64,000 nt of DNA, taken from positions 186,001-250,000 of the forward strand of contig CALUTQ010000002.1 of assembly GCA_944323745.1 (NCBI GenBank), in the 5' to 3' direction. The DNA comes from Candidatus Avelusimicrobium pullarium (GTDB lineage Bacteria > Elusimicrobiota > Elusimicrobia > Elusimicrobiales > Elusimicrobiaceae). Each line of letters starts with the position of its first letter. The stretch's first letter is position 1. The notes under the pieces were generated by a model that ran no database searches, had not been told where the DNA came from, and saw only the letters and a program-made list of their open reading frames with translations. Positions 1 to 52,000 of the stretch are shown one piece after another. Both the position numbers and the translations under genes were made by a program.

Positions 1-715
1 CGCGGGAGCGGTTTAAGTATTTTTCTATATTCTGCTGGCGTTTGCTTTTGGGCAGCATCGCTTGGGCAATAGCCCGTTCTATGCCGGCGGAAAAACCTTT
101 CAGCTGGGAATTCATTTTCTGTTGTTGCTGCCAAGTTTGCTGCGGGGTGTAAGAAGAAAGTATATTTTGGCGCGTTTCGTTGTCTTGCCGGTAATCGTCT
201 GCAGCGGCGGTCGTCCCTGTCAAAGCAGGGCCTGCAGGCGTATAGCCGCCCTTGCCGCCAAAAGAAGAAGAAACCGGCGCGCTGTAACGGGCCGAAGTGC
301 GCCCGCCAGCCGAAGGCGCCGTATTACGCGCGGGCGCTGTGTATCTGGCAGCCGGAAAAACGGTAGCCGGCCGGCGGCTTTGATAAGCCACAGCCGCCGC
401 CTGCGGGGCTCCCGCCGCGGCCGAAACGGGCGGAACAGCACGCGGCACGGACAACGGGGCCGCATTTGGCGCTTGCGGACGGTTTAAAATATCCGCTGCC
501 GAAGGCAAACCGGCCGCCTGCGGATGTTCCAGCATCATCATAAAGTCATCGGTAGTAACGGCCGGTTCCGTTGGCGCGGCAGAGGCAGCAGACGGTGCGG
601 CATAAGAAGCGGCCGGCGCGGCGTTTTTCCCGCGCATATTACGCAGTAAAAACGCGGCAGCCAGCAGCAACAAGATAACAATAAAGAGGAAGAAATAAAA
701 GATTTTTTTATTCAT
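1..715 (-). CDS. Membrane-anchored Ala/Pro-rich protein, partial (C-terminus outside window)
   Basis: The frame is open from the ATG at 715 to the window edge, giving at least 238 residues with no stop. Residues 4-23 form one hydrophobic segment (IFYFFLFIVILLLLAAAFLL) followed by Arg, so it is probably a signal anchor with the rest outside the cytoplasm. The body is low-complexity, rich in Ala, Pro, Ser and Arg. Near the visible end the sequence RQQNIEKYL resembles RQANIKKYL at the mature N-terminus of the neighbouring lipoprotein. There is no Shine-Dalgarno sequence. An extended -10 (TGCTACAAT) lies about 10 nt before the ATG, so the leader would be very short. The gene lies 69 bp behind the lipoprotein gene in the same direction. 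I do not recognise a family. Confidence 0.7.
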   Translation of the reverse strand, partial: MNKKIFYFFLFIVILLLLAAAFLLRNMRGKNAAPAASYAAPSAASAAPTEPAVTTDDFMMMLEHPQAAGLPSAADILNRPQAPNAAPLSVPRAVPPVSAAAGAPQAAAVAYQSRRPATVFPAARYTAPARNTAPSAGGRTSARYSAPVSSSFGGKGGYTPAGPALTGTTAAADDYRQDNETRQNILSSYTPQQTWQQQQKMNSQLKGFSAGIERAIAQAMLPKSKRQQNIEKYLNRSR

Positions 716-784: not shown

Positions 785-1831
785 TTACAGATGAGCCGAT
801 GACAAATAGTCTAAACGGTCTGCTTGGCGCTTCACCTTTTCGTTCCAGCGTTTTTGAGAAGTTAAAATCTCCTGCCGGTAAAACCCGTTTAAACGCTCCA
901 GTTCCGCTTTTTTGCGGCTGAGGCGGTTGTTTTCCCGCAGGGCAGTTTCCATTTCGTCTAAAGTGCGGTTAAAGGCCTTTCTGGCTTGCAAGACGGCGTC
1001 TTTGCCGTAAAGAAATTCTATGCGGGCCTCCAGCTGCTGCTGGGCCAAAATACTGCCGGAACGAATTTGGGCGATAGCGTCTTCCGGCGTAATGCCGAGC
1101 GGGTCGCTGTCTTTAGCCAAAACGGCGTTGATTTGCTGTGCCGTCTGCTGCCGAATTTGCTGCAAACGCGCCGAGAGATCCTGCTCGGTCTGGGCTTGCT
1201 TCATAGCCTGCTCAAAATCCTTAAGCGCTTTGGTTAAAACAGGGCGGCTTTGTTCGGCGGCTTTGGGGCCGTAATAAAAAGCCAAACGGTCCAAAAATTC
1301 CTGATTTCTTTTTTCTATACGCCGGCGGGAATCGTCCAGCAATGTTTGCCCCGGTTTTAAGCGCGTTTGCCCGTTTTGGGCGGAAATAAATTTTTCCCAC
1401 GCTTCATTTTGCTCCTGCTGAATGCGGCGCAAACTGTCTGCCAATGCGGCAGGAGAAGACGCCTGATGCGCCGCATCTACGGCCAAAGAAAGATAATGTT
1501 TACCCAAAGAAGAAAGCTTTGCCGCGCTGTCCTGCGCGTAGGTTTGCTGCAGGCGGCGGGCTATAATTTGCCGGTTTCGCTCCAGCAGGCGGGTTAAAAA
1601 ATCAAAATCGGGCGGCACGGGCGTATTGCGCACCAGCGCCACATCCGCCAATGCCGGCACAAAAAGCGGTTTTTGCCGTTGCCGGCCCACATTACGCCAC
1701 TCTTTGGCTTTTTGAAGGTATTTTTTGATATTGGCCTGCCGCTGGAATTTGGAAGGGGTGTTATCCTGCGGGCGGACGCAGCCGGCCGCCAGCAAGGCAC
1801 AGCAAAGCAACAATAAAGCAGATTTCTTCAT
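785..1831 (-). CDS. Predicted lipoprotein with long helical body, unknown function
   Basis: The product has 348 residues. It begins with a lipoprotein signal peptide and a lipobox ending LLAAGC, so Cys18 should be lipidated; the +2 residue is Val, compatible with outer-membrane sorting. The rest is Gln-, Arg-, Lys- and Glu-rich with long heptad-like stretches and looks mostly helical or coiled coil. I see no enzyme motif. A GGGAG ribosome site lies 7 nt before the ATG. Its promoter belongs to the GGYC-array class described separately. It is probably co-transcribed with the Ala/Pro-rich gene downstream, with which it shares a short RQxNIxKYL motif. Function unknown. Confidence 0.8.
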   Translation of the reverse strand: MKKSALLLLCCALLAAGCVRPQDNTPSKFQRQANIKKYLQKAKEWRNVGRQRQKPLFVPALADVALVRNTPVPPDFDFLTRLLERNRQIIARRLQQTYAQDSAAKLSSLGKHYLSLAVDAAHQASSPAALADSLRRIQQEQNEAWEKFISAQNGQTRLKPGQTLLDDSRRRIEKRNQEFLDRLAFYYGPKAAEQSRPVLTKALKDFEQAMKQAQTEQDLSARLQQIRQQTAQQINAVLAKDSDPLGITPEDAIAQIRSGSILAQQQLEARIEFLYGKDAVLQARKAFNRTLDEMETALRENNRLSRKKAELERLNGFYRQEILTSQKRWNEKVKRQADRLDYLSSAHL

Positions 1832-1854: not shown

Positions 1855-1935
1855 ATTATGGCTAATACGCCCCGGTTGAGCAAGGGTATTTGGACCCGTA
1901 GCCCCGCTGCAAAAAGGCCCACGCCCCAGTAGGCC
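1855..1935 (-). promoter_or_regulatory. GGYC-array promoter of the lipoprotein gene
   Basis: Read on the minus strand: GGCC at 1935-1932, 16 bp to GGCC at 1919-1916, 23 bp to GGTCCAAATACCC at 1896-1884, immediately followed by -35 TTGCTC (1883-1878), a 17-bp spacer and -10 CATAAT (1860-1855). The same spacing recurs at four other genes for exported proteins in this window. The boxes and distances are seen; binding of a regulator is inferred. Confidence 0.65.
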
Positions 1936-7810: not shown

Positions 7811-8773
7811 TTACCAACCGTTTTTAAAAGGTTCACAAGAGCCCTGGTATTCATCTACGGTATCAAAACCAGCATCCACTATTGCACAGCGATCTCCTTC
7901 AACACAAGAGCCTTGGCAAGAGTCCATAGAAGATCCACAACCATTCCCGTAACAAGATCCTCCACCGACATATTCTATTTCCCAGTCCCAGTACCAACAA
8001 TCGGCATCAGAAGTAGAAGTATTGGGACAGCATTCACTCTTATGAGCCAGCTTATAAGTTCTGTCACTGCAACTGCAGTCATCTATACTGCAGGCACTCC
8101 AAGCACCCCATTTCCCTGTAGAAGTATCACATTTACGGGTTCTTACGCCAGCATTATTACAACCACAAGACTCTGAGCTTAGGCCAGAACAAGGAATTGT
8201 CGCTTTCTCCCCTTCGCCGCAGACTAAAAAGACGCCTTTACCGCCATTTATCGTCAATTGGCTCCATTCCATTTTGTTATTGGTCGCGTCACAGGCGGGA
8301 AAGCGGCGGCCCGAAGCGGGACTAAACAAATACAAATCTGTCATATCGGCTCGTTTGGTCGCTTCGGCAGATTGTATGGTTGCTCCCTCTATCGTATCCA
8401 CCGTCAAATCGTGTGCAAATTCCAGCACGCCCGGCGCTACTACTTGCGCTCCACCCGAACGACGGCTGAATAAAGTATCCGTGGCAATTTCCGAAGACGA
8501 TTTGGACGAATTCAACGCCAAGACGCCTCTGCTAACAATTAAATTGCCCGTATTTAACGCGCGTGAATCGGAAGACAATTTATAAACCGACAGTTTCTCC
8601 CCCGCGTCCAACGTACAATTGCCTAATAATCCCACGTCGCACGTGCCGGTTACACCTAAGTCCCCGTATGAGGCATAAGGCACCGGAAAATACGTCACCA
8701 TTTTAATATTGTCTGCCACAGCAAACGGCGCGGCAGCCATAAAACCCAAAAGGGCAAAAAGAATTTTTTTCAT
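7811..8773 (-). CDS. Secreted TYFPVPYASY-family protein, paralogue 1 (TSP1-like segment)
   Basis: The 320-residue product has a signal peptide ending AVA-DN. Residues 21 to about 190 form a conserved domain starting NIKMVTYFPVPYASYGDLGV and ending VFLVCGEG, almost identical in the two following genes. The C-terminal 130 residues are Cys-rich. They include GVRTRKC...WGAWSACSIDDC, which has the W-x-x-W and Cys spacing of thrombospondin type 1 repeats, then an unrelated Cys-rich tail. The start at 8773 has a GGAAGG ribosome site; an extension upstream would precede the signal peptide and is unlikely. Export is clear; function is unknown, perhaps surface adhesion. Confidence 0.85.
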   Translation of the reverse strand: MKKILFALLGFMAAAPFAVADNIKMVTYFPVPYASYGDLGVTGTCDVGLLGNCTLDAGEKLSVYKLSSDSRALNTGNLIVSRGVLALNSSKSSSEIATDTLFSRRSGGAQVVAPGVLEFAHDLTVDTIEGATIQSAEATKRADMTDLYLFSPASGRRFPACDATNNKMEWSQLTINGGKGVFLVCGEGEKATIPCSGLSSESCGCNNAGVRTRKCDTSTGKWGAWSACSIDDCSCSDRTYKLAHKSECCPNTSTSDADCWYWDWEIEYVGGGSCYGNGCGSSMDSCQGSCVEGDRCAIVDAGFDTVDEYQGSCEPFKNGW

Positions 8774-8982
8774 AAAATTCCTTCCTGTACAAAAAAGTTG
8801 TTTCAAATATAGTATAAATGATAAATGACAGAAAAGCAATGTATTTTTAATGATCCTTCTTGGCCCCATACACTTTTTGTGCAAGATGTTTGAATTGATT
8901 GATATTTCTTAGTTTTAGTATTTATTGATTATTGTGAAAAATTTTTCCGCCATTACTGTAGGGAAACTGATTAAATAACTAT

Positions 8983-9014
8983 AAAACCCTTCGTCTTTGA
9001 CGAAGGGTTTTATT
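8983..9014 (-). terminator. Terminator of surface paralogue 2
   Basis: An ACCCTTCGTC/GACGAAGGGT stem lies 21 bp after the stop of the 9035-10276 gene and is followed by T-rich sequence on the minus strand. The remaining 8774-8980 region holds the promoter of paralogue 1 (TATACTATA about 48 bp upstream of its start) and nothing else recognisable. Confidence 0.8.
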
Positions 9015-9034
9015 TAATTTGATTTAATTCCAGT

Positions 9035-10276
9035 TTAACCGCAGCAAGTAACTTCCCTATACTGAACGGTTTCTTGGCAGGTTCCTGGCTGATAGAAATA
9101 TTTAGTTTCGCTTTTTTCACACGAAATTTGTCTGTAAAATCCGCGCTGTATAGCCTCGCTGCAGCCTAAACTGGATATCGAACTGCCTTCTACCAGAATT
9201 ATAGTATTTATGCTTCCTGTGCCATACATAGCACAGTAGCGATCGGCCATACTATCCACACCGGTGGTTATATTCTGGTTATAAAGTACTTTTACATTGT
9301 TAACAATAACACCCGGTCTAAGAGCTTCCGGCCCATTATATTCATAACGACCGGCACCGGCAGGGCAAGACCACGTAAACGATAATTCTGCGCTGATAGA
9401 GTTATTGGAAGAAGAGGAAGATGTATCCGGATACACATCAATACACGTTTCCGCGGGGCAAACAGACGGACTGGTTGAAAATTTGGCTTCTCTGTTTCCG
9501 TCACAGGTATCTTTAACAGAACTGTCAGCCGTGTATCCTTGGCCGGAATAAGAAAACTTAGCTTGCAGCACTCTGGTAATATCCATACACGTGCCAGAAA
9601 ACCCGTTACTGCAGTTGTAAAGTGCATTTTTATTGGATACAGGACACGTTTCCGTTACATCTGAACCGTATCCTGTCCGGATAGTTCCGTAACTCGGTTG
9701 ACACGCCGAGACCCCTTCGCCGCAAACCAAAAAGACACCTTTATCGCCATTTATCGTCAATTGGCTCCATTCCATTTTGTTATTGGTCGCGTCGCAGGCG
9801 GGAAAGCGGCGGCCCGAAGCGGGACTAAACAAATACAAATCTGTCATATCGGCTCGTTTGGTCGCTTCGGCAGATTGTATGGTTGCTCCCTCTATCGTAT
9901 CCACCGTCAAATCGTGTGCAAATTCCAGCACGCCCGGCGCTACTACTTGCGCTCCACCCGAACGACGGCTGAATAAAGTATCCGTGCCAATTTCCGAAGA
10001 TGATTTGGACGAATTTAACGCCAAGACGCCTCTATTGGCAATTAAACTGCCCGTGTTTAACGCGCGTGAATCGGAAGACAATTTATAAACCGACAGTTTC
10101 TCCCCCGCGTCCAACGTACAATTGCCCAATAACCCCACGTCGCACGTGCCGGTTACACCCAAGTCCCCGTACGAGGCATAAGGCACCGGAAAATACGTCA
10201 CCATTTTAATATTGTCTGCCACAGCAAACGGCGCGGCAGCCATAAAACCCAAAAGGGCAAAAAGAATTTTTTTCAT
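9035..10276 (-). CDS. Secreted TYFPVPYASY-family protein, paralogue 2
   Basis: The 413-residue product has the same signal peptide and the same domain to VFLVCGEG at about residue 190 as its neighbours, with very few substitutions. The C-terminal 220 residues differ completely from paralogues 1 and 3. They contain about 20 Cys, a Ser-rich run (SSSSSNN) and end CCG, which suggests a disulfide-rich extracellular domain. A ribosome site (GAGGACGGGG) precedes the ATG. The promoter region, GACCTATACTATAAATAG, is shared with paralogue 3. Function unknown. Confidence 0.85.
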   Translation of the reverse strand: MKKILFALLGFMAAAPFAVADNIKMVTYFPVPYASYGDLGVTGTCDVGLLGNCTLDAGEKLSVYKLSSDSRALNTGSLIANRGVLALNSSKSSSEIGTDTLFSRRSGGAQVVAPGVLEFAHDLTVDTIEGATIQSAEATKRADMTDLYLFSPASGRRFPACDATNNKMEWSQLTINGDKGVFLVCGEGVSACQPSYGTIRTGYGSDVTETCPVSNKNALYNCSNGFSGTCMDITRVLQAKFSYSGQGYTADSSVKDTCDGNREAKFSTSPSVCPAETCIDVYPDTSSSSSNNSISAELSFTWSCPAGAGRYEYNGPEALRPGVIVNNVKVLYNQNITTGVDSMADRYCAMYGTGSINTIILVEGSSISSLGCSEAIQRGFYRQISCEKSETKYFYQPGTCQETVQYREVTCCG

Positions 10277-10366
10277 AAAATCCCCGTCCTCGTTAATAAA
10301 ACACGTCTATTTATAGTATAGGTCATAATTCTTAAGAAATCAATATAACATATAAAAACACAAAAG

Positions 10367-10396
10367 AAGAGCAATTCCTTGCGAAATTGCTCTTTC
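10367..10396 (-). terminator. Probable terminator of surface paralogue 3
   Basis: An AAGAGCAATT/AATTGCTCTT stem lies 20 bp after the stop of the 10417-11457 gene. The following minus-strand sequence is T-rich but interrupted. Confidence 0.6.
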
Positions 10397-10416
10397 TGAA
10401 TAATTTGGAAGATAAA

Positions 10417-11457
10417 TCAAAACAAAGCCTTAGCTTCACAGACCCATTCATAAGGCACCATCAGACAACTATCTCCCACACTATAATATCCGTCGCGCAA
10501 TTCATCTTGGCAAATGGAAAAAGAAGAAGATGTCTTTGCTAACGGATTAGACGAACAATCATTTTCCGTATAGTCTTCACATTTAGAAACCGTTGTTCCT
10601 GAACTTTCCCACCGAGTGGAACAATCGGAACCCCATCTGTCCCCAACACTACCTTGTCTCCAATACAGAGTCCAAGAATAACAATCCGCATCTGTATAAG
10701 GTTGGCCAATACAGCATTCACTCTTATGGGCCAGTTTATAAGTTCTGTCGCTGCAACCGCAATCATCTATACTGCAGGAGCTCCAAGCACCCCAGTTACC
10801 TGTAGAAGTATTGCACTCACGGGTTCTGACTCCCGCATTATTACAGCCGCAGGGCTCTGAACTATTGCCAGAACAAGCGAGTTCAATTTTTTCCCCTTCG
10901 CCGCAGACCAAAAAGACACCTTTACCGCCATTTATCGTCAATTGGCTCCATTCCATTTTGTTATTGGTCGCGTCGCAGGCGGGAAAGCGGCGGCCCGAAG
11001 CGGGACTAAACAAATACAAATCTGTCATATCGGCTCGTTTGGTCGCTTCGGCAGATTGTATGGTTGCTCCCTCTATCGTATCCACCGTCAAATCGTGTGC
11101 AAATTCCAGCACGCCCGGCGCTACTACTTGCGCTCCACCCGAACGACGGCTGAATAAAGTATCCGTGCCAATTTCCGAAGATGATTTGGACGAATTTAAC
11201 GCCAAGACGCCTCTATTGGCAATTAAACTGCCCGTATTTAACGCGCGTGAATCGGAAGACAATTTATAAACCGACAGCTTCTCCCCCGCGTCCAACGTAC
11301 AATTGCCTAATAATCCCACGTCGCACGTGCCGGTTACACCCAAGTCCCCATATGAGGCATAAGGCACCGGGAAATACGTCACCATTTTAATATTGTCTGC
11401 CACAGCAAACGGCGCGGCAGCCATAAAACTCAAAAGGGCAAAAAGACATTTTTTCAT
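10417..11457 (-). CDS. Secreted TYFPVPYASY-family protein, paralogue 3 (TSP1-like segment)
   Basis: The 346-residue product begins with a signal peptide (one Lys-Cys change from the others) and the shared domain of about 170 residues. The next 65 residues match paralogue 1 (CGCNNAGVRTREC, WGAWSSCSIDDC, DRTYKLAHKSECC). The last 90 residues are private and Cys-rich. So paralogues 1 and 3 share two modules while paralogue 2 shares only the first. The GAGGACGGGAAT ribosome site and TATACTATAAATAG promoter match paralogue 2. Export is clear; function unknown. Confidence 0.85.
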   Translation of the reverse strand: MKKCLFALLSFMAAAPFAVADNIKMVTYFPVPYASYGDLGVTGTCDVGLLGNCTLDAGEKLSVYKLSSDSRALNTGSLIANRGVLALNSSKSSSEIGTDTLFSRRSGGAQVVAPGVLEFAHDLTVDTIEGATIQSAEATKRADMTDLYLFSPASGRRFPACDATNNKMEWSQLTINGGKGVFLVCGEGEKIELACSGNSSEPCGCNNAGVRTRECNTSTGNWGAWSSCSIDDCGCSDRTYKLAHKSECCIGQPYTDADCYSWTLYWRQGSVGDRWGSDCSTRWESSGTTVSKCEDYTENDCSSNPLAKTSSSFSICQDELRDGYYSVGDSCLMVPYEWVCEAKALF

Positions 11458-11598: not shown

Positions 11599-14124
11599 TC
11601 AGCGGTGCTTGCGCCCCGTTGTTTTGCCCCGAGCGGACTTACCCTTTTTGGCAGCAGCCCGGGCCGTCTGTTTTTTGGCTGTCTTAGCCTGGGCTTTACG
11701 CACGGTTTTCATCGTCGCTTTGGCACGCGTTTTAGAAGACGTCTTTTTGGCCGCCGTCTTGGCTGTGCTTTTTCTGCCTTTCTTGGCGGCTTTGTAACCC
11801 TCCAACGCAAGCGGCAGCACTTCGTCCATATGCTTGACAGGGATAAGCGTCAGCTCTTTGCGCACTTTTTCGGGCAGTTCGGCTACGTCTTTTTCGTTGG
11901 TATGCGGAAAAAGAATGGTCTTTACCCCCTCACGGTACGCAGCAAGGAATTTTTCTTTTATTCCCCCCACCGGCAGCACACGGCCCGTAATGGTTACCTC
12001 ACCGGTCATAGCCAGTTTTTTCTTTACCGGCAAGCCGGAAAGCAGGCTGATCAAGGCTGTAGTAATAGTAATACCGGCCGACGGCCCGTCTTTGGGCACG
12101 GCACCTTCGGGGAAGTGAATATGAAAGTCCGTATGCTCAAAGTTGACGCCTTTGCCAAAGCCGCGGCTGCGCGCATACGTCAGCGCGGCACGCACGGACT
12201 CTTTCATCACATTGCCCAGCATACCCGTCAAAATCAGCTGGCCTTTGCCCGGTATTTTGGCCGCTTCAATAGACAGCGTCTCTCCGCCCACGCTGGTCCA
12301 GGCCAAACCGGTGGCAATGCCCACGCCGTTTTCTTCGGTGGCGAAATTGGAATATTTCGGCACACCCAAAAACTCGTGCAGGTTTTTGTCGGTCACGGTG
12401 ATTTTTTTGCCGCCGTTTTCCACATACATCTTGGCGGCTTTGCGGCACAAACTGCCGATTTCACGCTCCAAATTGCGCACGCCGGCCTCACGCACGTATT
12501 CGCGCATAATCAGGGCGACGGCTTCTTTGGTAATTTCCAAGGCGCCTTCTTTCAGGCCGTGCTGTTTCATCTGTTTGGGAATTAAATAGTGATCGGCTAT
12601 TTCGTGTTTTTCATAATCGGTGTAGCCGGAAAAATCAATAATTTCCAAACGGTCGCGCAGCGTATTGGGTATGCCCGAAAGCGTGTTGGCCGTGGTAATA
12701 AACATCACTTTGGACACGTCGTAAGGCACGTCCAAAAAGTGATCCACAAAGTCTTTATTCTGCTCGGGGTCTAACAGTTCCAGCAAAGCGGCTGCGGGGT
12801 CGCCGCGCCAGTCCGAACCCATTTTGTCTATTTCGTCCAGCAGAAAAACGGGGTTGGAGCTTTTGGCCTTGCTGATGCCCTGAATAATGCGCCCGGGCAT
12901 AGAACCGATATAGGTTCTGCGGTGGCCGCGAATTTCGCTTTCGTCACGCACGCCGCCCAAAGACATACGCACAAATTTGCGTCCGATTGCCCGTGCGATG
13001 GACTTGGCCAAAGACGTCTTACCCACGCCCGGAGGCCCCACAAAGCACAGCACCGGCCCGCGCAGTCCTTCGGTCAGTTTGCTCACGGCAATATATTCCA
13101 AAATACGTTCTTTGGGTTTGTCCAGGCCAAAGTGATCGTCGTCAAGCACCTTTTTGGCAGCGGCAATATCCAGCACGTCCTGTGTAGTAATGTTCCAAGG
13201 CATATTGACCAGCCAGTCCAAATACGTGCGTGACACCGTCGCCTCCGGCGAAAACGGCGCCATTTTTTGCAAACGGTCCACTTCTTTTTCGGCCGCTTCT
13301 TTGGCGGCAGGGGGCAAACCGTTTTTCTTGATTTTGGCGCGGATGGCGTCCAGCTCTTTTTGGAAATCGTCCTTTTGGCTCAGTTCCTTTTGAATGGCCT
13401 TCATTTGCTCATTGAGATAATATTCTTTTTGGTTTTTCTCAATCTGAGCGCGCACCTTGGAGTGAATTTTTTCTTCCAAACCCAAAATTTCCACTTCGCT
13501 GGTGATGAGCTTTAAGATTTTTTCCAACCGCTCTTTTACGTCGGTTGCTTCCAAAATTTTCTGGCGTTGCTCCGTTTTTACCACCATATTGGAAGCAATG
13601 GTGTCGGCCAGCTTGGACGGGTCTTCTATCTGGCGCAGGAAGGATACCCCCTCCACCGCAATACGCCGCGAAACGCGTGCATAGTGGTCAAACTCGTCAA
13701 GCACTTTGCGCATTAAGGCCTGCACCACGGGGCTGTTATCTTCTTTTTCCTCTATATAGTCCACCGTGGCAAACCAGGCGTTTGTAAGCGGGTTAAGCTC
13801 CAGTTTTTCCACCTTGGCGCGCACCAAGCCTTGCAAAAACACCTTAATAGAGCCGTCCGGCATTTTTAAAGACTGCGTAATTTCGCTCAGTACCCCGAAA
13901 TGATAGATATCGCTTTCTTTAGGGTCTTCTGTTTCAGCCACTTTTTGAGAAAGGGCCAACACATATTTACCCGGCGCTTCCAGGGCCAAATCAATGGCCA
14001 CGATAGACTTTTCCCGGTCTACCGAAAGCGGCAAAGACATCCCCGGGAACATAACCACGTCCCGTATCGCCACTGCCGGCACTACTTTTGGCAGGGAAAG
14101 AGTTCTTTTCATTGTTTCTTCCAT
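11599..14124 (-). CDS. lon: Lon protease with a long basic C-terminal tail
   Basis: This 841-residue ATP-dependent serine protease degrades misfolded and regulatory proteins. The LON substrate-binding domain covers about 1-210. The AAA+ domain carries Walker A GPPGVGKTS and Walker B PVFLLDEIDKM. The protease domain has Ser682 in KDGPSAGITI and the dyad Lys at about 725, as in family members. Beyond about residue 780 there is an extra Lys/Ala/Arg/Thr-rich tail of about 60 residues, unlike usual Lon proteins and like histone H1 or nucleoid proteins. The ATG at 14124 has GGAGAG 6 nt upstream. The promoter overlaps a CIRCE-like operator. Confidence 0.96.
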   Translation of the reverse strand: MEETMKRTLSLPKVVPAVAIRDVVMFPGMSLPLSVDREKSIVAIDLALEAPGKYVLALSQKVAETEDPKESDIYHFGVLSEITQSLKMPDGSIKVFLQGLVRAKVEKLELNPLTNAWFATVDYIEEKEDNSPVVQALMRKVLDEFDHYARVSRRIAVEGVSFLRQIEDPSKLADTIASNMVVKTEQRQKILEATDVKERLEKILKLITSEVEILGLEEKIHSKVRAQIEKNQKEYYLNEQMKAIQKELSQKDDFQKELDAIRAKIKKNGLPPAAKEAAEKEVDRLQKMAPFSPEATVSRTYLDWLVNMPWNITTQDVLDIAAAKKVLDDDHFGLDKPKERILEYIAVSKLTEGLRGPVLCFVGPPGVGKTSLAKSIARAIGRKFVRMSLGGVRDESEIRGHRRTYIGSMPGRIIQGISKAKSSNPVFLLDEIDKMGSDWRGDPAAALLELLDPEQNKDFVDHFLDVPYDVSKVMFITTANTLSGIPNTLRDRLEIIDFSGYTDYEKHEIADHYLIPKQMKQHGLKEGALEITKEAVALIMREYVREAGVRNLEREIGSLCRKAAKMYVENGGKKITVTDKNLHEFLGVPKYSNFATEENGVGIATGLAWTSVGGETLSIEAAKIPGKGQLILTGMLGNVMKESVRAALTYARSRGFGKGVNFEHTDFHIHFPEGAVPKDGPSAGITITTALISLLSGLPVKKKLAMTGEVTITGRVLPVGGIKEKFLAAYREGVKTILFPHTNEKDVAELPEKVRKELTLIPVKHMDEVLPLALEGYKAAKKGRKSTAKTAAKKTSSKTRAKATMKTVRKAQAKTAKKQTARAAAKKGKSARGKTTGRKHR

Positions 14125-14191
14125 AATACTCTCCGTTTAAAGGGGGCTGCTCTCCCGACGCAAAACAAGGCGCCTTGAGCCAGTTTAGAAA

Positions 14192-14240
14192 AGTATAACA
14201 AATTATTTTAAAATTAGCAAGTTATTTATTTGAGTGCTAA
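14192..14240 (-). promoter_or_regulatory. lon promoter with CIRCE-like HrcA operator
   Basis: TTAGCAAGT (14214-14222), 9 bp, GAGTGCTAA (14232-14240) matches the CIRCE element; the right half is perfect and the left half differs in its last three bases. On the minus strand -35 TTGCTA (14220-14215) overlaps the left half, and -10 TATACT (14197-14192) follows at 17 bp. Repression by HrcA and heat-shock induction of lon are inferred. Confidence 0.75.
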
Positions 14241-14306
14241 CTTTGAGCAGACAGACGCTCGTTTCTTCCTTGTACACTAGACGGGTTCGGCAGGTTGGAA
14301 ACATAA

Positions 14307-14388
14307 GGCCCAAAAAACAAATAGGTCTTAAAAAATAGCGCTGTTAGGCCCAAAGTCCCTTGTGAAGCCTATCAAGAAACACTAATCT
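14307..14388 (+). promoter_or_regulatory. GGYC-array promoter of the 14418 gene
   Basis: GGCC at 14307, 17 bp to GGTC at 14324, 23 bp to GGCCCAAAGTCCC at 14347-14359, then directly -35 TTGTGA (14360-14365), a 17-bp spacer and -10 TAATCT (14383-14388). Confidence 0.7.
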
Positions 14389-14417
14389 GTAAGTAAGTTA
14401 AACTTACAGGAGGATGT

Positions 14418-14957
14418 ATGAAAAAAGCCGGTTTTTTTAGTGTTGTTCTTTCTCTTTTTACCCTGATGTTCGCAGCCGTCCCGGGCGCCAATGCACTATG
14501 TTATGCCGACAGCTCGCGCGAAGCGGCTATGTATATTGACCAGCAAACCGACGTGCCGGAAGTGTCCGACGAAGAAATTTACCTGCTGCAGCAGGCGTTT
14601 GCTGCCGGTCTGCAAACCATAGACGCGCATACCTATACCAACAGCCTGACGGAACAGGACAAAGAAATTCTGCAGCTGCTCGATGTTACCATTCCCGCCA
14701 TTATCAATAAAGTAAAAACCTCCATTACCGACGTGGAAGAAGAACTGATGAAAGCCAACGAAACGCTGGCACGCAAAATAGTGGCCAACCAAAACCTTTA
14801 CCCCGCGCCGACCCGTTGGGACGTGGCCGCTATGTTTGCTTCCACTACCTCTTTAATGCACGCAATGATGAGCGGCAAAATTGACGAAGGCGTGGCGGAA
14901 ATTCTGATGAATGAAAGTATGCAAATGCTGCAGGACATGCTGCCGCAGGAAGAATAG
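14418..14957 (+). CDS. Small secreted helical protein, unknown function
   Basis: The product has 179 residues with a signal peptide probably cleaved after ANA (about residue 26). The mature part is acidic and almost wholly helical in character, with Met-rich segments (MFASTTSLMHAMM, MQMLQDMLPQEE). There is no transmembrane segment after the signal and no recognisable motif. A strong AGGAGG ribosome site precedes the ATG. It is a single gene with its own GGYC-array promoter and terminator, divergent from lon. Confidence 0.8.
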   Translation: MKKAGFFSVVLSLFTLMFAAVPGANALCYADSSREAAMYIDQQTDVPEVSDEEIYLLQQAFAAGLQTIDAHTYTNSLTEQDKEILQLLDVTIPAIINKVKTSITDVEEELMKANETLARKIVANQNLYPAPTRWDVAAMFASTTSLMHAMMSGKIDEGVAEILMNESMQMLQDMLPQEE

Positions 14958-15681: not shown

Positions 15682-15762
15682 GGCCCACAAAAAAATAGGT
15701 CCAAATTGGGCCTTGGCATAGGTCTAAAAAACCTTTTTGTTCTCGTGTATTTTTTATAGAAT
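15682..15762 (+). promoter_or_regulatory. GGYC-array promoter of the 15800 gene
   Basis: GGCC at 15682, 16 bp to GGTC at 15698, 23 bp to GGTCTAAAAAACC at 15721-15733, then -35 TTTTTG (15734-15739), a 17-bp spacer and -10 TAGAAT (15757-15762). Confidence 0.7.
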
Positions 15763-15799: not shown

Positions 15800-16357
15800 A
15801 TGAACCTGAAGAATGCAGTACTCGGTCTGACTTGTGTATTAGCCGTTACGGTCGCCGCACAATCGGCCCAGGCGCAGTTCCTGACGCGCCACGAACGCAA
15901 GGCTATTGCTACGGCTGCTTCCGCCTGGCAAAAAGAAAAGCAGCCCAAAGAGCAAGAAGCCCAAAAAGAACAGCCCAAACAGGTGCAGGAAACAAAACAA
16001 GCCAGCACCAAGGCGGACTTCCGCATCCCCGGCCGCGAAATGAATATGGTCTATTCTTCTGACTATGCGTTGGATACGGTCTGCAAAATCGGCCAAAAAT
16101 GCTGGCAGAGCTTTTGCTCTTTTGGCAAAGGCTGCCTGAAAGCCGCCCAAACGGCTGCCACCAATGCGGCCAAGTACGGTCCCGGCGGGCGTGAAGGCGC
16201 CGCTATGCGCAGTGCAGAAGGGTTGGTTAATCTGCTTTCCAAAGATTCCAACAAAAAACTGCCGTTAAAAGAACAACTGCGCGAAAACACCGATTCTTTG
16301 GCCAAAGCGCTGGAACAGGCGGACTTAAAAGCCCGTCAGAAAAACGCAAGCAAATAA
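15800..16357 (+). CDS. Small secreted protein with KEQ-rich linker, unknown function
   Basis: The product has 185 residues. The signal peptide ends AQA-QF. A Lys/Glu/Gln/Pro-rich linker (about residues 44-70) is followed by a segment with Cys residues (VCKIGQKCWQSFCSFGKGC) and a basic helical C-terminus. The ATG at 15800 has an AGGGAG ribosome site. No family recognised. Its promoter belongs to the GGYC-array class, which is the only link to the other exported proteins in that group. Confidence 0.78.
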   Translation: MNLKNAVLGLTCVLAVTVAAQSAQAQFLTRHERKAIATAASAWQKEKQPKEQEAQKEQPKQVQETKQASTKADFRIPGREMNMVYSSDYALDTVCKIGQKCWQSFCSFGKGCLKAAQTAATNAAKYGPGGREGAAMRSAEGLVNLLSKDSNKKLPLKEQLRENTDSLAKALEQADLKARQKNASK

Positions 16358-23814: not shown

Positions 23815-23879
23815 GGCCTTTTTCCTTTTAAAAAATAGGTCTAAAGGCCCTGGCGCGGCAGGCTCACTTTTTCTATATT
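23815..23879 (+). promoter_or_regulatory. GGYC-array promoter of the 23915 gene
   Basis: GGCC at 23815, 23 bp to GGTCTAAAGGCCC at 23838-23850, then -35 TGGCGC (23851-23856), a 17-bp spacer and -10 TATATT (23874-23879). A distal third site is absent at the expected place, which lies in the ybaK coding end. Confidence 0.65.
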
Positions 23880-23914: not shown

Positions 23915-24595
23915 ATGAAAAATACGTTGCTTTCCGTACTGTTCCTAGCGTTGGCGGCTATGCCGGCTTTCGCCCAAGATAACGCCCAAACCCGTCAAAA
24001 AATACAGCAATTGGATCAAGCCCTAACAGCGGCCCTGCCATACGCTACGCAAGCCAGCCCCGTGCCCTACGTCAACATCGGTCTGCTTAAAAACGCGGTG
24101 GAAAATGTGCTTTTAAAACACCCTTTTGCCAAATATGAAACCCTCTACCAGCAGCTAACCCCCGCCATTAAGCCCTATTTGGCTTACCGCTTGCAGCGGG
24201 CGCCTCTTTCCGAAGAAGAAATGACCGTTTTGCTGCAATCTTTTGAAACGTTGAGCCAGCAAAACAAAAGCATTGTCAAAATGATTCTCAGTTCGCTTAA
24301 CATTCGGGCCGTCGTAGCGCAAGAAACCTGCCAGCAGCTGCAGGAATATATTGAACGGCAAAAGGCTTTACCTTATTTTTCGGATATACAGCTGGCAGAA
24401 AATATTTTCCCTGATTCTATGGTAGATTTTCTCGGCCCGCACAGAATGGAAATTTTGCTCAAACAGGTTTTTCAGGCGCGTTTGGCCCAACATCCTTTGT
24501 CGCAGGATGAAAGCGCCTTTATTGCCATTATGATGGATTTGTCCGAAGAAAACACCCGCACCATAGAAACGATTTTGCGCAATGCACACCTGTAA
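23915..24595 (+). CDS. Secreted helical protein, unknown function
   Basis: The product has 226 residues. A signal peptide ends PAFA-QD at about residue 20. The mature protein is Gln- and Leu-rich, predicted helical, with one Cys (ETCQQLQEYI) and no membrane segment. No motif is recognised. The ATG at 23915 has AAAGAGG 11 nt upstream. It is a single gene under a GGYC-array promoter; the next gene downstream has the same kind of promoter. Confidence 0.78.
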   Translation: MKNTLLSVLFLALAAMPAFAQDNAQTRQKIQQLDQALTAALPYATQASPVPYVNIGLLKNAVENVLLKHPFAKYETLYQQLTPAIKPYLAYRLQRAPLSEEEMTVLLQSFETLSQQNKSIVKMILSSLNIRAVVAQETCQQLQEYIERQKALPYFSDIQLAENIFPDSMVDFLGPHRMEILLKQVFQARLAQHPLSQDESAFIAIMMDLSEENTRTIETILRNAHL

Positions 24596-24615: not shown

Positions 24616-24697
24616 AGTCCTATAAACGCATAGGCCTTTTTTATGGGGCGTTGTAGGTCTAAGGACTCTTTTGTAAAAAGCAGAAATTTCTTACAGT
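24616..24697 (+). promoter_or_regulatory. GGYC-array promoter of the 24741 gene
   Basis: AGTC (imperfect) at 24616, 17 bp to GGCC at 24633, 23 bp to GGTCTAAGGACTC at 24656-24668, then -35 TTTTGT (24669-24674), a 17-bp spacer and -10 TACAGT (24692-24697). Confidence 0.65.
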
Positions 24698-24740: not shown

Positions 24741-25742
24741 ATGAATAAAATAAAATGGATGGTAATTGCTCTTTTAGCGGTATGTGTTTCCGCCCCGGCC
24801 TTTGCACAAACGGCCGCGCAAATTAAATTTACCAAAGCATTGGAACAACAGGCCGCCAAAGCCGCGCGCAAACACAATCAGGCCCAGGCTGCCGTATGTG
24901 CTTACTGCGGTGAAAAGATTCGCTACATCTATCAGCATTGTTCGGCCCAAGGCTCCGTAGGCCTTTGCAGTACCGAAAAAGCCGCCCCGCAAGCCGACAC
25001 CGCTTCCGCCCCGGCCGAAAACTGCCCCATTTGCGGCGAAAAACTGACCATTGACGAACGCTTCCACGGTGTAAAACACGTCTGCCCCGAAGTTAAACCG
25101 GGCCCTGGCGGCGTATGCTTCTATTGCAAGCAATCTATTGAAACCACGCATCAGCATTGCCCTGCCCAAGGCTCCGTAGGCCTTTGCAGCGAGACTGAAA
25201 TTAAAACACAGACCGAAGCCCCTGCCGCACCGGAAGAATGCTGCCCTATCTGCGGCGAAAGACTGACCGTTGACGAACGCTTCCACGGTGCAAAACACGT
25301 TTGCCCCGAAGTTAAACCGGGCCCTAATGGCGTGTGCTTCTATTGCAAGCAATCTATTGAAACCACACATCAGCATTGCCCTGCTCAAGGTTCCGTGGGG
25401 CTTTGCAGCACCGAAGAAATTAAAACGCAGGCTGATACGGCTTCCGCCCCGGCTGAAAACTGCCCCCTCTGCGGCGAAAAGCTGACCGTTGATGAACGCT
25501 TCCACGGCGTAAAACACATCTGCAAAAAGACCGAATCAAAAATCAAAAACTATTGTATCTATTGCGGTGAAAAAATTGTAAAGCAGGGTCAGCGCTGCAA
25601 CCCTTCCAAAACGGCACCTCTTTGCACGGTTTCCTGCCCGGAATGCGGCGCCAATCTGCGCGACCCCAAAAATTTGTGCAAAGACGGCGTTCACCACTGC
25701 AAATTCAAACTTCTCATTCATCCGGCCCCTATGAGAAAATAA
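24741..25742 (+). CDS. Secreted protein of tandem zinc-ribbon repeats
   Basis: The 333-residue product has a signal peptide ending PAFA-QT. The mature part is a chain of CxxC motifs: CAYCGEK, CPICGEK, CFYCKQS, CPICGER, CFYCKQS, CPLCGEK, CIYCGEK and CPECGAN, each set paired with a later Cys or His. The pattern is that of small zinc ribbons. A 73-residue unit is repeated three times (starts near 25017, 25236 and 25455) with nearly identical DNA. Zinc ribbons usually sit in the cytoplasm, so an exported chain is unusual. Metal binding or a disulfide-linked scaffold are both possible. Confidence 0.82.
   Translation: MNKIKWMVIALLAVCVSAPAFAQTAAQIKFTKALEQQAAKAARKHNQAQAAVCAYCGEKIRYIYQHCSAQGSVGLCSTEKAAPQADTASAPAENCPICGEKLTIDERFHGVKHVCPEVKPGPGGVCFYCKQSIETTHQHCPAQGSVGLCSETEIKTQTEAPAAPEECCPICGERLTVDERFHGAKHVCPEVKPGPNGVCFYCKQSIETTHQHCPAQGSVGLCSTEEIKTQADTASAPAENCPLCGEKLTVDERFHGVKHICKKTESKIKNYCIYCGEKIVKQGQRCNPSKTAPLCTVSCPECGANLRDPKNLCKDGVHHCKFKLLIHPAPMRK
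25017..25540 (+). repeat. 219-bp in-frame tandem repeats in the zinc-ribbon gene
   Basis: Units begin at 25017, 25236 and 25455, a period of 219 bp or 73 codons; the last is partial. High DNA identity suggests recent expansion and potential length change by recombination. Confidence 0.8.
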
Positions 25743-46969: not shown

Positions 46970-49099
46970 TCACAATACGTTAAAATAGCTTTGTGCACTT
47001 TGCCCGCCGCAGGTAACCGTCAGGTCAAACTTTCCTTTTTGCAAAGGCCACCAAACGTCGGCGCCCGAAAAGGGCAAGGTTTCTTGGTTCACCTGCCATT
47101 GGCAGGGCGCTTGTGCCCCCGCCGTTGCAAAATGCAGCTGCTGGGCAGAAGCCGGCAAAGCGGGGTCATATTTAAACACGTCCCCCCGTACCGGAAACAC
47201 AATGCGCAGGTTACCGTCCGCCTCGGTGTGGGAGCCATCGCAGGTTTGCGTCGGCAAATTCTGCTCCGTAAACACTTCTTCGCGCGTGCGCAGGCATAAA
47301 GGGCCTGCCAGCAGGCCGCTTTGTTCGCACACGGTGGCGCGGCGTACGCCGTAAGGCACTTCAAACGGGCCGGACGGATACTTGCCGTTAGCGTACAAAA
47401 GCACATCGTGCATAATGGGCGCCGCGCCGGAAATGCCGGATACCTTTTGCATAGACGACGCGTCAAAATTCCCCGCCCATACCGCCACGGTTAAACGCGG
47501 AGTGTAGCCGATGGCAAAATTATCGCGGTAATCTTTGCTGGTGCCCGTTTTGGCCGCGGCGGGAAAAGTAAAATGCAAAGGGGAGTTTAAACCAAAGGCG
47601 TCTGCACGGGCGGCATTGTCGGCAAGGATATCCGTTATCACGTAACTTACGTCTGCAGGCAAAGCTTGTTTGCGCTCCACGCGTTTTATTAAATAAGGTT
47701 CCGTGGCAAACACCACGGGGCGCACCGTACCGCCGCGGGCCAGCGCCGCATAAGCGTTTGCCAGTTCCAAGAGCGTTACTTCCCCCCCGCCCAAGGCCAA
47801 CCCCAGACCGTAAAACTCAGGCGCTTTATTCAAAGAGACAAAGCCCAAATCGTGCAATAAATTTAACATACGGGCCGCTCCCAGCGGCTCGGCCGCTTTG
47901 ACGACGGGAATGTTATACGAGCAAGCCAAAGCCCGCCGCACCGATACGCCGCCGTGAAAAGTTTCGTCGTAATTGCGCGGGCGGAAGCCCCCTTCAAAAA
48001 AGGTGTCTTCGTCCTGCAAAATACTGGCCGCGCTTAACCCGTTTTGCAAAGCCAGTGCATACACAAACGGCTTTAGCGAAGACCCCGGCTGGCGCAAAGC
48101 CGTTACGCCGTCCACCTGCCCGCTGTGCCGCTCATCATAAAAATCGGCAGAGCCTACATACGCCAGTATGCCGCCCGTTTGATTGTCCAGCACTACCACG
48201 GCGGCGTTGGTAACGTTGTTGTCGGTCAGTTTGGCTAAATGGTTTTGTACCGCTTTTTCGGCATAGAGTTGCAAATCTTTGTCCAGCGTAGTGTACACAA
48301 AAGACGCCTGCGGGGCCATTTCGTACACTTTGCGCGCAAAGTGCGGCGCCGAAAACGGACGTTCCCCCGTCCGCAGGCCCAGTGCTTCGCGCATAGCCAA
48401 ATCGTATTGTTCCGCGGTAATGGCACCGGTAGAACGCATTGCCTGCAATACCCGCCCGCGGCGCGCAAGAGCCCCTTTGGGGTTTTTAAGCGGGTTTAAG
48501 CGCGACGGGGACTGTATCAGCCCCGCCAGCAAAGCCGCCTGCGCCAAAGACACGTCGGAAGCCGGCAGGCCGAAATAAAATTGGGCCGCCGCCTCTACGC
48601 CCTGCGTCATATTGCCCAGTTCCAGCGAATTAAAATATTCCTGCAAAATTTCTTCTTTGCTTTTTTGGCGTTCCAGTTTAACGGCGTCCCACGCTTCCAA
48701 AATTTTACCCCACAGGTTTTTGCTGCGCGGCGTGTGCAAACGCGCCAGCTGCTGGGTAATGGTGGACGCGCCGGACACCACCCCGCCGCGCGTTACGTTC
48801 TGATAAACGGCCCGCAGTACGGCGCGCCAGTCCACGCCGAAGTGGCTGTAAAAACGGCGGTCCTCCGCCGCTACCACGGCCAGCACCAGCCAAGGGGACA
48901 CCTCGGAAAGCGTTACGGGTTTGCTATAGGTTTCCCGCTCCGACAAAAAAGAACGCAAAGGCCGGCCCTGGCGGTCCACCAACTGCACGGACACCGCCGC
49001 CGAAGGAACCGACGCATCGGGCACGGAAAGCGCTTCCCCGTCCAACGGACGGGGAAGCAGAAATGACAACAGGCAAAGGCAAAGAAACGTTTTTTTCAT
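46970..49099 (-). CDS. pbpC: Penicillin-binding protein 1C
   Basis: The 709-residue bifunctional murein synthase has a signal-like N-terminus, then a GT51 glycosyltransferase domain (about 60-225, catalytic Glu in AAEDRRFYSHFG and GGVVSGASTITQQLAR). The transpeptidase domain follows (about 290-560, Ser in PGSSLKPF, SYN, KTGTS). A C-terminal BiPBP_C-type domain is present. Its start overlaps the A2M stop by one base. The A2M-pbpC pair is a known bacterial arrangement in which the macroglobulin is thought to guard the periplasm. Confidence 0.95.
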   Translation of the reverse strand: MKKTFLCLCLLSFLLPRPLDGEALSVPDASVPSAAVSVQLVDRQGRPLRSFLSERETYSKPVTLSEVSPWLVLAVVAAEDRRFYSHFGVDWRAVLRAVYQNVTRGGVVSGASTITQQLARLHTPRSKNLWGKILEAWDAVKLERQKSKEEILQEYFNSLELGNMTQGVEAAAQFYFGLPASDVSLAQAALLAGLIQSPSRLNPLKNPKGALARRGRVLQAMRSTGAITAEQYDLAMREALGLRTGERPFSAPHFARKVYEMAPQASFVYTTLDKDLQLYAEKAVQNHLAKLTDNNVTNAAVVVLDNQTGGILAYVGSADFYDERHSGQVDGVTALRQPGSSLKPFVYALALQNGLSAASILQDEDTFFEGGFRPRNYDETFHGGVSVRRALACSYNIPVVKAAEPLGAARMLNLLHDLGFVSLNKAPEFYGLGLALGGGEVTLLELANAYAALARGGTVRPVVFATEPYLIKRVERKQALPADVSYVITDILADNAARADAFGLNSPLHFTFPAAAKTGTSKDYRDNFAIGYTPRLTVAVWAGNFDASSMQKVSGISGAAPIMHDVLLYANGKYPSGPFEVPYGVRRATVCEQSGLLAGPLCLRTREEVFTEQNLPTQTCDGSHTEADGNLRIVFPVRGDVFKYDPALPASAQQLHFATAGAQAPCQWQVNQETLPFSGADVWWPLQKGKFDLTVTCGGQSAQSYFNVL

Positions 49100-52000
49100 T
49101 ACGGCTTAATGACCGCACGCGTGGTGGCGTTACGCCCAAAGAAGGCGGGGTCATACATTTGGCTGGCCCACAGGCTGGGGTAAGAAAACTCCCCTTCCAC
49201 GCTGGCCTGCACCAAATAAGAATATTCGTGCTCGCCGGCGGACAGATAGTCGGCAAATACGGCGATGCGGTCGTCATATTTTTCGTCGCGCGTAAAACCG
49301 CCCCAAAAATCGTTCTTCAGCGCAGCAGCCTGCGAACGGCTTTCGGTAGCCAAAGACGTATTGACGATTTCAAAACCGGCCGGAATAAAATCTTCCAGCA
49401 CGACAAACGAGGCCGCGGCCGTGCTGCGGACGGTAAGCGTTACTTTATAGCGCCCGCCTTCCTTAAATTCCGTCACGGCTTTGCCTTGCAAGTCCGTAAT
49501 TTTACGGGAAACGTCAAAACCGGCGTTGACCGTGTCGGTATAAGCGGCGGGGGCATAGGTCTGCCAGAGCGTATAATAAAGCGTACCGACGCCGTTTTTG
49601 CTAAAGCGTGCACGGGCCTGTGTTCCGTTCTGATACACTTGCGCAAACGGCCAAGAACCGCGCTGCGTCTTTAAGAAACGGCCTTTAAACTGCGCATCCA
49701 TTACCGTTTTGCCGTCCAGCAATACGCCGGCCGTAAAATCGGGCTCCACGGACTCTTTAAGCGTATAATAGGCGTTCAGTGCAGACATCACCGCGGCATT
49801 GGCGCTGGTGTTGATCCAGTAGCCTTCCTCGCCCAGCTGGTCCGTCAACCATTTGACGGCTTGATACGGGCGGGGCAGATAGTCGCCCACCACCAGCAGC
49901 GCTTCCATAGACAAGGCCGTCACTTTCACGTCGGTCATATGCAGCCAGGGCTGATTGCCTCCGGCGGAAAAATGCACCGTTTGTGTGCCGTATTGGGCAC
50001 GGTTGAGCAATTCCTGCGCCAGCTTCATTTTAACGTCGGCCCCTTTATTTAACTGGTTGGAGGCCAGCAGCAAATAGGCCTGCGCCGGCGCGCTTAAACT
50101 GTTGCGCTTGGCATAGAGGTTATTAAACTGCCCGTCCATCTTCTGCCCGTATAAAGACAGCACCAGCACCGCATAGGCGCGTACGGTTTCGTCTTCCGAG
50201 GCGGAATAGGGATAGGCGCGGCGTTGGGTTTTTTGCCCGAACACGCCCAGCAGCCAAGAAACGGCTTTTTGCAAGGCGCCGTCATTGACTTTGTATCCTT
50301 CCTGCTTGGCACGGTAAGCCGTTTCCAAGGCGTAGGCGGTTACATACGGGTCGGGCAAGGCACCCGGCCAATAGGCAAATCCGCCGTCATCGCTTTGATA
50401 CAAAGTCATTTCATCCAAAATCTGCTGGGTCTGTTTTTTATACTCCGTCAAATCGCCCAGGCCGAAATCTTCTATCATTTTGGCGCCTTCAATGACGGGG
50501 CGTATTTTGGACATTTTTTGTTCCAAACAATCGTAAGGATACGTCAGCAAATACACCATACCGCCGCGCAAATTAATCAGCGCCGTAGAGGCCAGCGTCG
50601 CCGCTACGCGCGCGGGCACTTTTTCGTTGACGGAGGCCGGTTTTTCAAGCAGTTGTTCTTCGGCCGCGTCCGTGGCGGAATAGAGGGCCAGCGTTTGCTG
50701 TTTTTCCACATCTTCCACCTGCAATTTGCTGACGACGCCGTCGCTTATTTTGCCTGCCTGCGCCGCAAAAGAAATTTCCGCTTCGCCGTTTTCCACAGCT
50801 TGGCAGTCCCACGTTACCAGCTTAGCTGCCCCTTTGGCCACGTTCACTTTTTGTGAGCCGCCGCTTAAGCGCACGGCCCCCTGGGCACGGGCGGTAAGGG
50901 TAAGGGCACCTTTTTCGTCTTCATAATTATAGACGACGGCACCGCATTTAAATTTATCGCCCACGCGGGCAAAGCGCGGCATTTTGGGCGTAACCATTAA
51001 CGGCTTGGATACTTTTACATTTGTTTCCCCTCCGCCAAACTCTTTGACGGTGGCCGCCACGGCCATAATGCGGAAGGTGGTTAAATTGTCGGGCAGGGTA
51101 AACTGCACGCTGGCGCGGCCCTTGCCGTCGGTGCGGACGGAAGCGTTGAAATAGGGCGTAAATTCAAAATGGCTGCGCAAATCGGCCCCGCCCAGTTTGT
51201 CGGAAGATCCGCCCCCGCCGCCGCGGTTTTCGCCTTTTTCGCCAAAGTTGCGCTGGCCGATGATAAACACGCGGTTATCGGCCGTAGAAACCGACAGCTG
51301 CGCCGGTGAATAGAACACGTCCATCAAATCGGGCCGTTTATAGCCGGTTAAAGAGAGCACCCCTTCGTCCACCACCATCAGCGTTACGTCGGCCGGTACG
51401 GGTTTGCCTTCCACTGCCGTATTTAAAGATACCGTTACCGTTTCGCCGGGGCGGTAAAGCGTTTTGGCGGTAGAAACTTGAGTGTCTATTTCCCGTTCCT
51501 TTTGGGAAACAGTCAAATTGACATAGCCCGTTTTGCCCTGCGGCTTGGCCAGATCCAGTCCTTCCTTATCATATTCGGGCTGGGCCGCGCGGCCGCGCAC
51601 CAGGGTAACCCCCACAAACACATTGGGCAAATAAGCGTTTTTAATAGGCACTTCCACATAGTCCGCACCCGAGGCTACCGGCACCGTCCACGCGTCTAAA
51701 ATGCCTTCGCGCTCCACAGTAACCAAAGCCAGGGCGCTTTCGTAGGGGCTTTTGACCAAAATGCGCGCCGTATCGCCGGGGTTATATTCCTTTTTATCTT
51801 GTTCCAGCTGCAAAATGTCATCGTCGGTTTGCTGCCAGTAGGCTTCCCCTTTGCCATACACCGTAAAACCGAAGCCGCCCTGCACTTCCCGCCCTTGTGC
51901 GTCTTTGGCGCTCAGCGTAACCTGATAAGACCCGGGCTCCGAAGCCACATAAGAGAAGTCGTACCCTTTGTCCGTGACGGTAAAGTTTTGGGACGGGAAA

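Follow-up and report, generated by a model that had tools for sequence, protein, structure and literature searches.

A phased dyad array ahead of exported-protein genes in Elusimicrobia, and a candidate NarL/FixJ-type regulator for it

The stretch of DNA analysed here, referred to below as the window, is 64,000 nucleotides from Candidatus Avelusimicrobium pullarium (Elusimicrobiota; contig CALUTQ010000002.1, positions 186,001 to 250,000), and it holds five genes for exported proteins that are each preceded by a phased array of short GGYC-containing elements. Judging from sequence, we consider it probable (at roughly 0.8) that this array is the operator of an exported-protein regulon activated by a phosphorylated NarL/FixJ-type regulator, most likely the one encoded at G000:C2:499821-500501 in the same genome (G000). 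The array, its phasing and spread, the export signals, the predicted transcription start and the co-occurrence with the regulator were all computed directly.

A weight matrix derived from seven other species (44 sites), with the own genome excluded, was used to scan the window. Five positions stand out (23837+, 29.8 bits; 14346+, 21.6 bits; 15720+, 19.5 bits; 1897-, 19.4 bits; 24655+, 16.4 bits), and they are the five arrays that a first-pass annotation of this DNA had reported and that direct reading also finds. They are the sole strong matches in the 64,000 nucleotides, the sixth-ranked position reaching 6.7 bits. First-order Markov simulations of the window predict 0.08 positions of at least 15 bits against the five observed. 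An Rfam scan of the window returned one tRNA only, so the array is no known RNA. The motif is short and degenerate, and about half of its loose matches in the own genome lie in coding sequence, as might be expected of a chance pattern or a dispersed intergenic repeat without regulatory role. Such an origin is nonetheless very hard to credit given the excess in the window, the lack of shared sequence between or around sites, the fixed phase to the -10 box and the start codon, and the conservation of site-gene pairs between species; phasing and cross-species recurrence together refute it.

Binding unit, phasing and predicted start

The binding unit is a 16-base pair (bp) inverted repeat, or dyad, TRGGYC-YAAA-GRCCYA, and not the single GGYC site first described; what was called the distal GGYC represents one half of a third dyad. 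The proximal dyad abuts a weak -35 box (TTGT), and one or two more dyads or half-sites lie upstream of it, 22–24 bp apart. Refinement gives AGGYCYAAAGRCCCTTGT as the proximal element, with strong conservation at columns -1 to +16, the -35 box TTGT at +14 and a -10 consensus TAtAAT at +37..42. The 17-bp spacer between the two boxes, noted earlier in the window, holds in sites across species. Upstream half-sites played no part in choosing the sites, so their spacing is independent of selection. The left type peaks at -22 (21/64 versus 0.4 expected), the right type at -16/-15, and a further peak is seen at -38. In a genome of another family (G097), full dyads occur at -22/-23/-24 and -46/-47 from the proximal dyad, with ~0.003 expected per position, and another (G034) has about eight dyad pairs exactly 24 bp apart (e.g., 553658/553682, 905666/905690 and 1079785/1079809). 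Because scoring of full dyads in these two genomes resolves the half-site peaks, the distal, middle and proximal sites of the first-pass annotation each represent the visible half of one dyad in a tandem set of two or three. Its interval of exactly 23 bp is found when left halves alone are compared, whereas between dyads the distance is 22–24 bp. The AT core of the G034 dyads is frequently TTTW, not AAAG (TAGGTCTTTTGACCC), and the orientation of the centre hence varies between genera.

A fixed distance to the -10 box would also be seen if the motif formed the -35 part of a promoter read by an alternative sigma factor, with no activator site. Against this, the elements are palindromic and repeated two or three times upstream at 23–24 bp, and the -10 box is a sigma70-type TAtAAT at a 17-bp spacer from TTGT. 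We rate the sigma-factor explanation as highly improbable and retain that of an activator-bound operator.

The position of start codons lends support to the promoter call. Among 80 sites followed by an export-signal start, the start codon lies at +49 to +52 in 22, none of them with a Shine-Dalgarno match; one more lies at +55, and from +59 onward most have a Shine-Dalgarno sequence. The pile-up at +49 to +52 has P of about 5e-11, and an offset of 49–50 is the predicted +1 given the position of the -10 box, which suggests that around a quarter of these mRNAs are leaderless. Start codons exactly on the predicted +1 and without a Shine-Dalgarno sequence are found at loci L083, L085, L108, L111, L112, L114 and L116, and in the own genome at sites C1:43480, C1:289126, C2:266576, C2:134564 and C2:176570.

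Exported proteins behind the sites

A search of the own genome with the 17-mer pattern AGGYCYAAAGRCCCTTG, at up to three mismatches, gives 49 matches compared to four for the reversed pattern. About half of these fall within coding sequence and lack promoter features; the other half are promoter-like, and nearly all of the latter stand ahead of genes with an N-terminal export signal. The same holds for unselected sites elsewhere: 40 of 44 in seven other species of the family (P 9e-12) and 15 of 16 in G097 (P 2e-5) precede export-signal genes, both P values being calculated from a permissive base rate of 22/53 window genes. Of the four exceptions among the 44, three are operons that open with a conserved short gene and continue with one for an exported HEAT-like protein. 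This two-gene arrangement, with a non-exported open reading frame of ~55 amino acids (aa; core LRFLLALGNTKIVVLK), is seen at L063:260-421, L084, L089 and L097. Most of the arrays inspected in G034 likewise stand ahead of exported-protein genes. Sites hence recur beyond chance, and across species, ahead of functionally coherent genes.

Beyond the own genome, we counted dyads against a reversed control in 150 genomes. The dyad is enriched in five families of the class Elusimicrobia (f1, f2, f5, f7 and f8); enrichment was not seen in f3, f4, f6, f9 or any other class surveyed. One genome (G083) is dyad-rich (47 versus 4 in the control), though its matches to the 17-mer pattern fell mostly in coding sequence. 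The strict pattern also matched once in an Omnitrophota record (L079), where promoter features are absent and the match is apparently fortuitous. The earlier proposal of one regulon of envelope proteins under one activator is supported by each of the computed tests, with “exported” in place of “envelope.”

The products are diverse. Among them are an M20 peptidase, proteins with ankyrin repeats or zinc ribbons and, scoring just below the cut-off, a matrixin-like metallopeptidase, but most belong to no known family; several look secreted or periplasmic. Few targets are common to different species, yet some site-gene pairs are conserved, including three of the five in the window. The regulon is only a subset of the secretome, because no site precedes certain other exported proteins encoded in the window, for example those at 46970-54741.

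In the window, the first array lies on the minus strand. Its proximal dyad CGGGTCCAAATACCCT (1883..1898) is followed by -35 TTGCTC (1883-1878) and -10 CATAAT (1860-1855), and its upstream half-sites (1916..1935), a middle GGCC at 1919-1916 and a distal GGCC at 1935-1932, correspond to the positional peaks at -22 and -38. It precedes a gene (785..1831, minus) for an exported protein of 348 aa with a lipobox-like LLAAGC and no Pfam family, which has a homologue in G047, likewise behind a site. The remaining four are on the plus strand. The second has a distal GGCC at 14307 and a middle GGTC at 14324 (half-sites spanning 14307..14327), the proximal dyad TAGGCCCAAAGTCCCT (14345..14360), -35 TTGTGA (14360-14365) and -10 TAATCT (14383-14388); the gene behind it (14418..14957) encodes an exported protein of 179 aa with no family above the cut-off and with homologues in G036 and G145 that also stand behind sites. 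In the third, upstream elements (15682..15713) comprise a distal GGCC at 15682 and a middle TAGGTCCAAATTGGGCC at 15696-15712, followed by the proximal dyad TAGGTCTAAAAAACCT (15719..15734), -10 TAGAAT (15757-15762) and a gene (15800..16357) for an exported protein of 185 aa without Pfam family.

The fourth array lacks the distal site. It consists of a middle GGCC (23815..23818) and the proximal dyad TAGGTCTAAAGGCCCT (23836..23851), with -35 TGGCGC (23851-23856) and -10 TATATT (23874-23879), ahead of a gene (23915..24595) for an exported protein of 226 aa, again with no Pfam family. The fifth, with a distal GTCC at 24617 and a middle GGCC at 24633 (24617..24636), the proximal dyad TAGGTCTAAGGACTCT (24654..24669), -35 TTTTGT (24669-24674) and -10 TACAGT (24692-24697), precedes a gene (24741..25742) for an exported zinc-ribbon protein of 333 aa that has homologues behind sites in G036 and G145 (44% and 36%). 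All five products carry an N-terminal export signal and none matches another, in agreement with the first-pass annotation; its statement that none has a known family is correct for four, the exception being the zinc-ribbon protein (Zn_ribbon_3, 7.5e-12, above the cut-off).

Other arrangements of exported genes were noted along the way. At L061:4872-11366 (minus), an exported protein of 2164 aa has a weak C-terminal receiver-domain match (2.3e-4, below the cut-off) and two peptidase-like His/Cys regions, read by eye, with no family match; it lies behind a divergent double dyad, and a macro-domain-like gene is faced by the other side of this element. Two neighboring exported paralogues of ~820 aa, 32% identical, have a dyad promoter each (L060:9524-11995 and 12066-14531, minus). 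Three consecutive exported paralogues in the window (7811-11457, minus) with near-identical signal peptides (MKKILFALLGFMAAAPFAVADNIKMVTY) have no dyad promoter.

Candidate regulator

The candidate (G000:C2:499821-500501, minus strand) is a 227-aa response regulator with Response_reg (5.9e-30) and GerE (1.3e-17) domains, the NarL/FixJ-type architecture. Its orthologues show the same distribution over families as the dyad. Enrichment of the dyad is found in 59 of the 66 genomes with an orthologue of it and in one of the 84 without; the former hold 1013 dyads (120 controls) and the latter 20 (86 controls). By genome, the co-occurrence has a Fisher P of 1e-32; by genus within the class (15/19 versus 0/4) P is 0.008, which is the fairer figure because relatives are not independent. 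The recognition helix points the same way. In DosR of Mycobacterium tuberculosis, Lys179, Lys182 and Asn183 contact DNA bases (PMC4082495), and the candidate's KTIKNH aligns with DosR KTVKNY at these residues. Two dyad-free genomes have altered regulators: that of G127 reads SINTVKNH where motif-bearing genomes have SVKT[IV]KNH, with Asn replacing the first Lys, and that of G190 (59%) has diverged further than any other copy seen in its genus.

Upstream of the candidate gene lie genes for a receiver-HisKA-HATPase protein and a dCache-HAMP-HisKA-HATPase kinase, and downstream of it lie TadE-like genes (G000:C2:492000-508000; L230). Simple sequence tags indicate a similar neighborhood in f1, f2, f5 and one f7 copy. 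The second copy of the regulator in f7 has no such neighbors, as at L241, where apparent NADH dehydrogenase genes are nearby.

The own genome encodes only one other GerE-domain response regulator, a NarL-type protein at G000:C1:506055-506699 that adjoins a HisKA_3 sensor kinase and might in principle be the regulator. However, its close orthologues are restricted to f1, whereas dyads also occur in f2, f5, f7 and f8, which refutes it as a general regulator, and its helix, NTIHVH, is without the Lys-Lys-Asn pattern; there is little chance that it is the protein sought. A third GerE match, at C1:780179, is within a sigma-70-like protein of 165 aa.

Several observations weigh against the proposed operator and its assignment to the candidate. 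The rule used to call export signals was home-made and lets membrane proteins through as well. The co-occurrence is partly inherited, with related genomes counted many times, and the Lys-Lys-Asn helix is common in the NarL/FixJ family, so that it permits the match and does not prove it. Individual genomes depart from the correlation: in G189, 17 dyads are present while the assembly, 90% complete, lacks an orthologue, G194 has an orthologue but no dyad (assembly 64% complete), G107 shows no dyad enrichment, and G129 and G133 have an intact helix with weak enrichment (9 v 5 and 8 v 6). A dyad was sought at the candidate's own gene as a sign of autoregulation, and none was found. This last point, the broken correlation in G189 and G194, and a survey of the own genome that covered GerE-domain proteins only would all fit a real regulon whose dyads are bound by another transcription factor. 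In favor of the candidate stand the co-occurrence across the 150 genomes, with absences inside the class as well, the resemblance of helix and box to those of DosR, and the altered regulators of G127 and G190; another factor seems to us the less probable choice, though the most serious of the alternatives considered.

Comparison with known systems and meaning

The geometry resembles that of Bordetella BvgA, a NarL-family regulator of secreted and surface targets. At Pfha and Pptx, BvgA dimers bind head-to-head every 22 bp on one DNA face, with the most promoter-proximal dimer abutting the -35 box, and BvgA promoters tolerate weak secondary sites (PMC7250471). Regular two-turn spacing of tandem dyads and a proximal dyad abutting -35 are found here too, a likeness in geometry only: the inverted heptad TAAGAAATTTCCTA is BvgA's, the spacing is 22 bp there compared to 23–24 bp here, and the phylum and the type of kinase differ. 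DosR/DevR is likewise of the NarL family, with a Lys-Lys-Asn helix, a box of the form RGGnCY-WW-RGnCCY and two or more closely packed sites, the proximal one of which overlaps -35 (PMC3029386). The dyad departs from the DosR box, TTSGGGACTWWAGTCCCSAA (PMC2275270), in having Y/R in place of A/T at positions 4 and 11 of the 14-bp core. Its targets are exported proteins and not hypoxia or dormancy genes, and DosR sensors are haem kinases, unlike the dCache-HAMP kinase next to the candidate. By sequence, the closest to the candidate among the solved structures listed is VraR (E 3e-38), and BvgA is not one of those structures; cell-envelope regulators of the VraR/LiaR type have the helix KTVKTH and differ in target sites and operon partners.

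These comparisons suggest how the system might operate. Phosphorylated dimers of the regulator would occupy two or three dyads, arranged head-to-head (TRGGYCYAAAGRCCYA) and stacked ~23–24 bp apart on one DNA face, and the proximal dimer, centered near -42.5 and touching the poor -35 box, would recruit sigma70-type RNA polymerase. Target genes would then be on only while the regulator is active, the signal being fed by the neighboring dCache-HAMP sensor kinase and the receiver-histidine-kinase in the locus with TadE-like genes; a phosphorelay from an outside sensor to the regulator is likely. Binding, phosphorylation, the direction of control and the existence of a sensed signal are points that we infer, activation being favored over repression because the -35 box is poor and the position is class-II.

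No published regulon or binding motif in Elusimicrobia was found in a literature search, most subscription papers being outside its reach. As far as we have seen, novelty lies in the regulon, its operator and the assignment of the regulator; the type of system is already known. To our knowledge, almost nothing is known about how Elusimicrobiota control their genes; the phylum is widespread, and very few of its members have been cultured. The outcome here is a promoter code, a proposed regulator together with its kinases, and a catalogue of secreted proteins, of unknown function, that are probably produced as a set. Searching for the promoter could reveal the inducible secretome of any genome in the class. 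Arrays occur in G034, presumed to be Elusimicrobium minutum, which would make the idea testable in a cultured host; the orthologue of the candidate in G034 is at G034:C1:1292622-1293284. The class also provides a natural series in which to follow how a response regulator and its operators evolve, with some lineages in which both seem to decay jointly. More speculatively, and at odds that we would put well short of even, the system may be a class-wide secretome switch in which a phosphorelay encoded at a Tad-type locus, for a pilus or for secretion, activates fast-changing exported proteins with only a signal peptide and this promoter in common, the promoter being conserved while its cargo, perhaps Tad substrates or partners, turns over.
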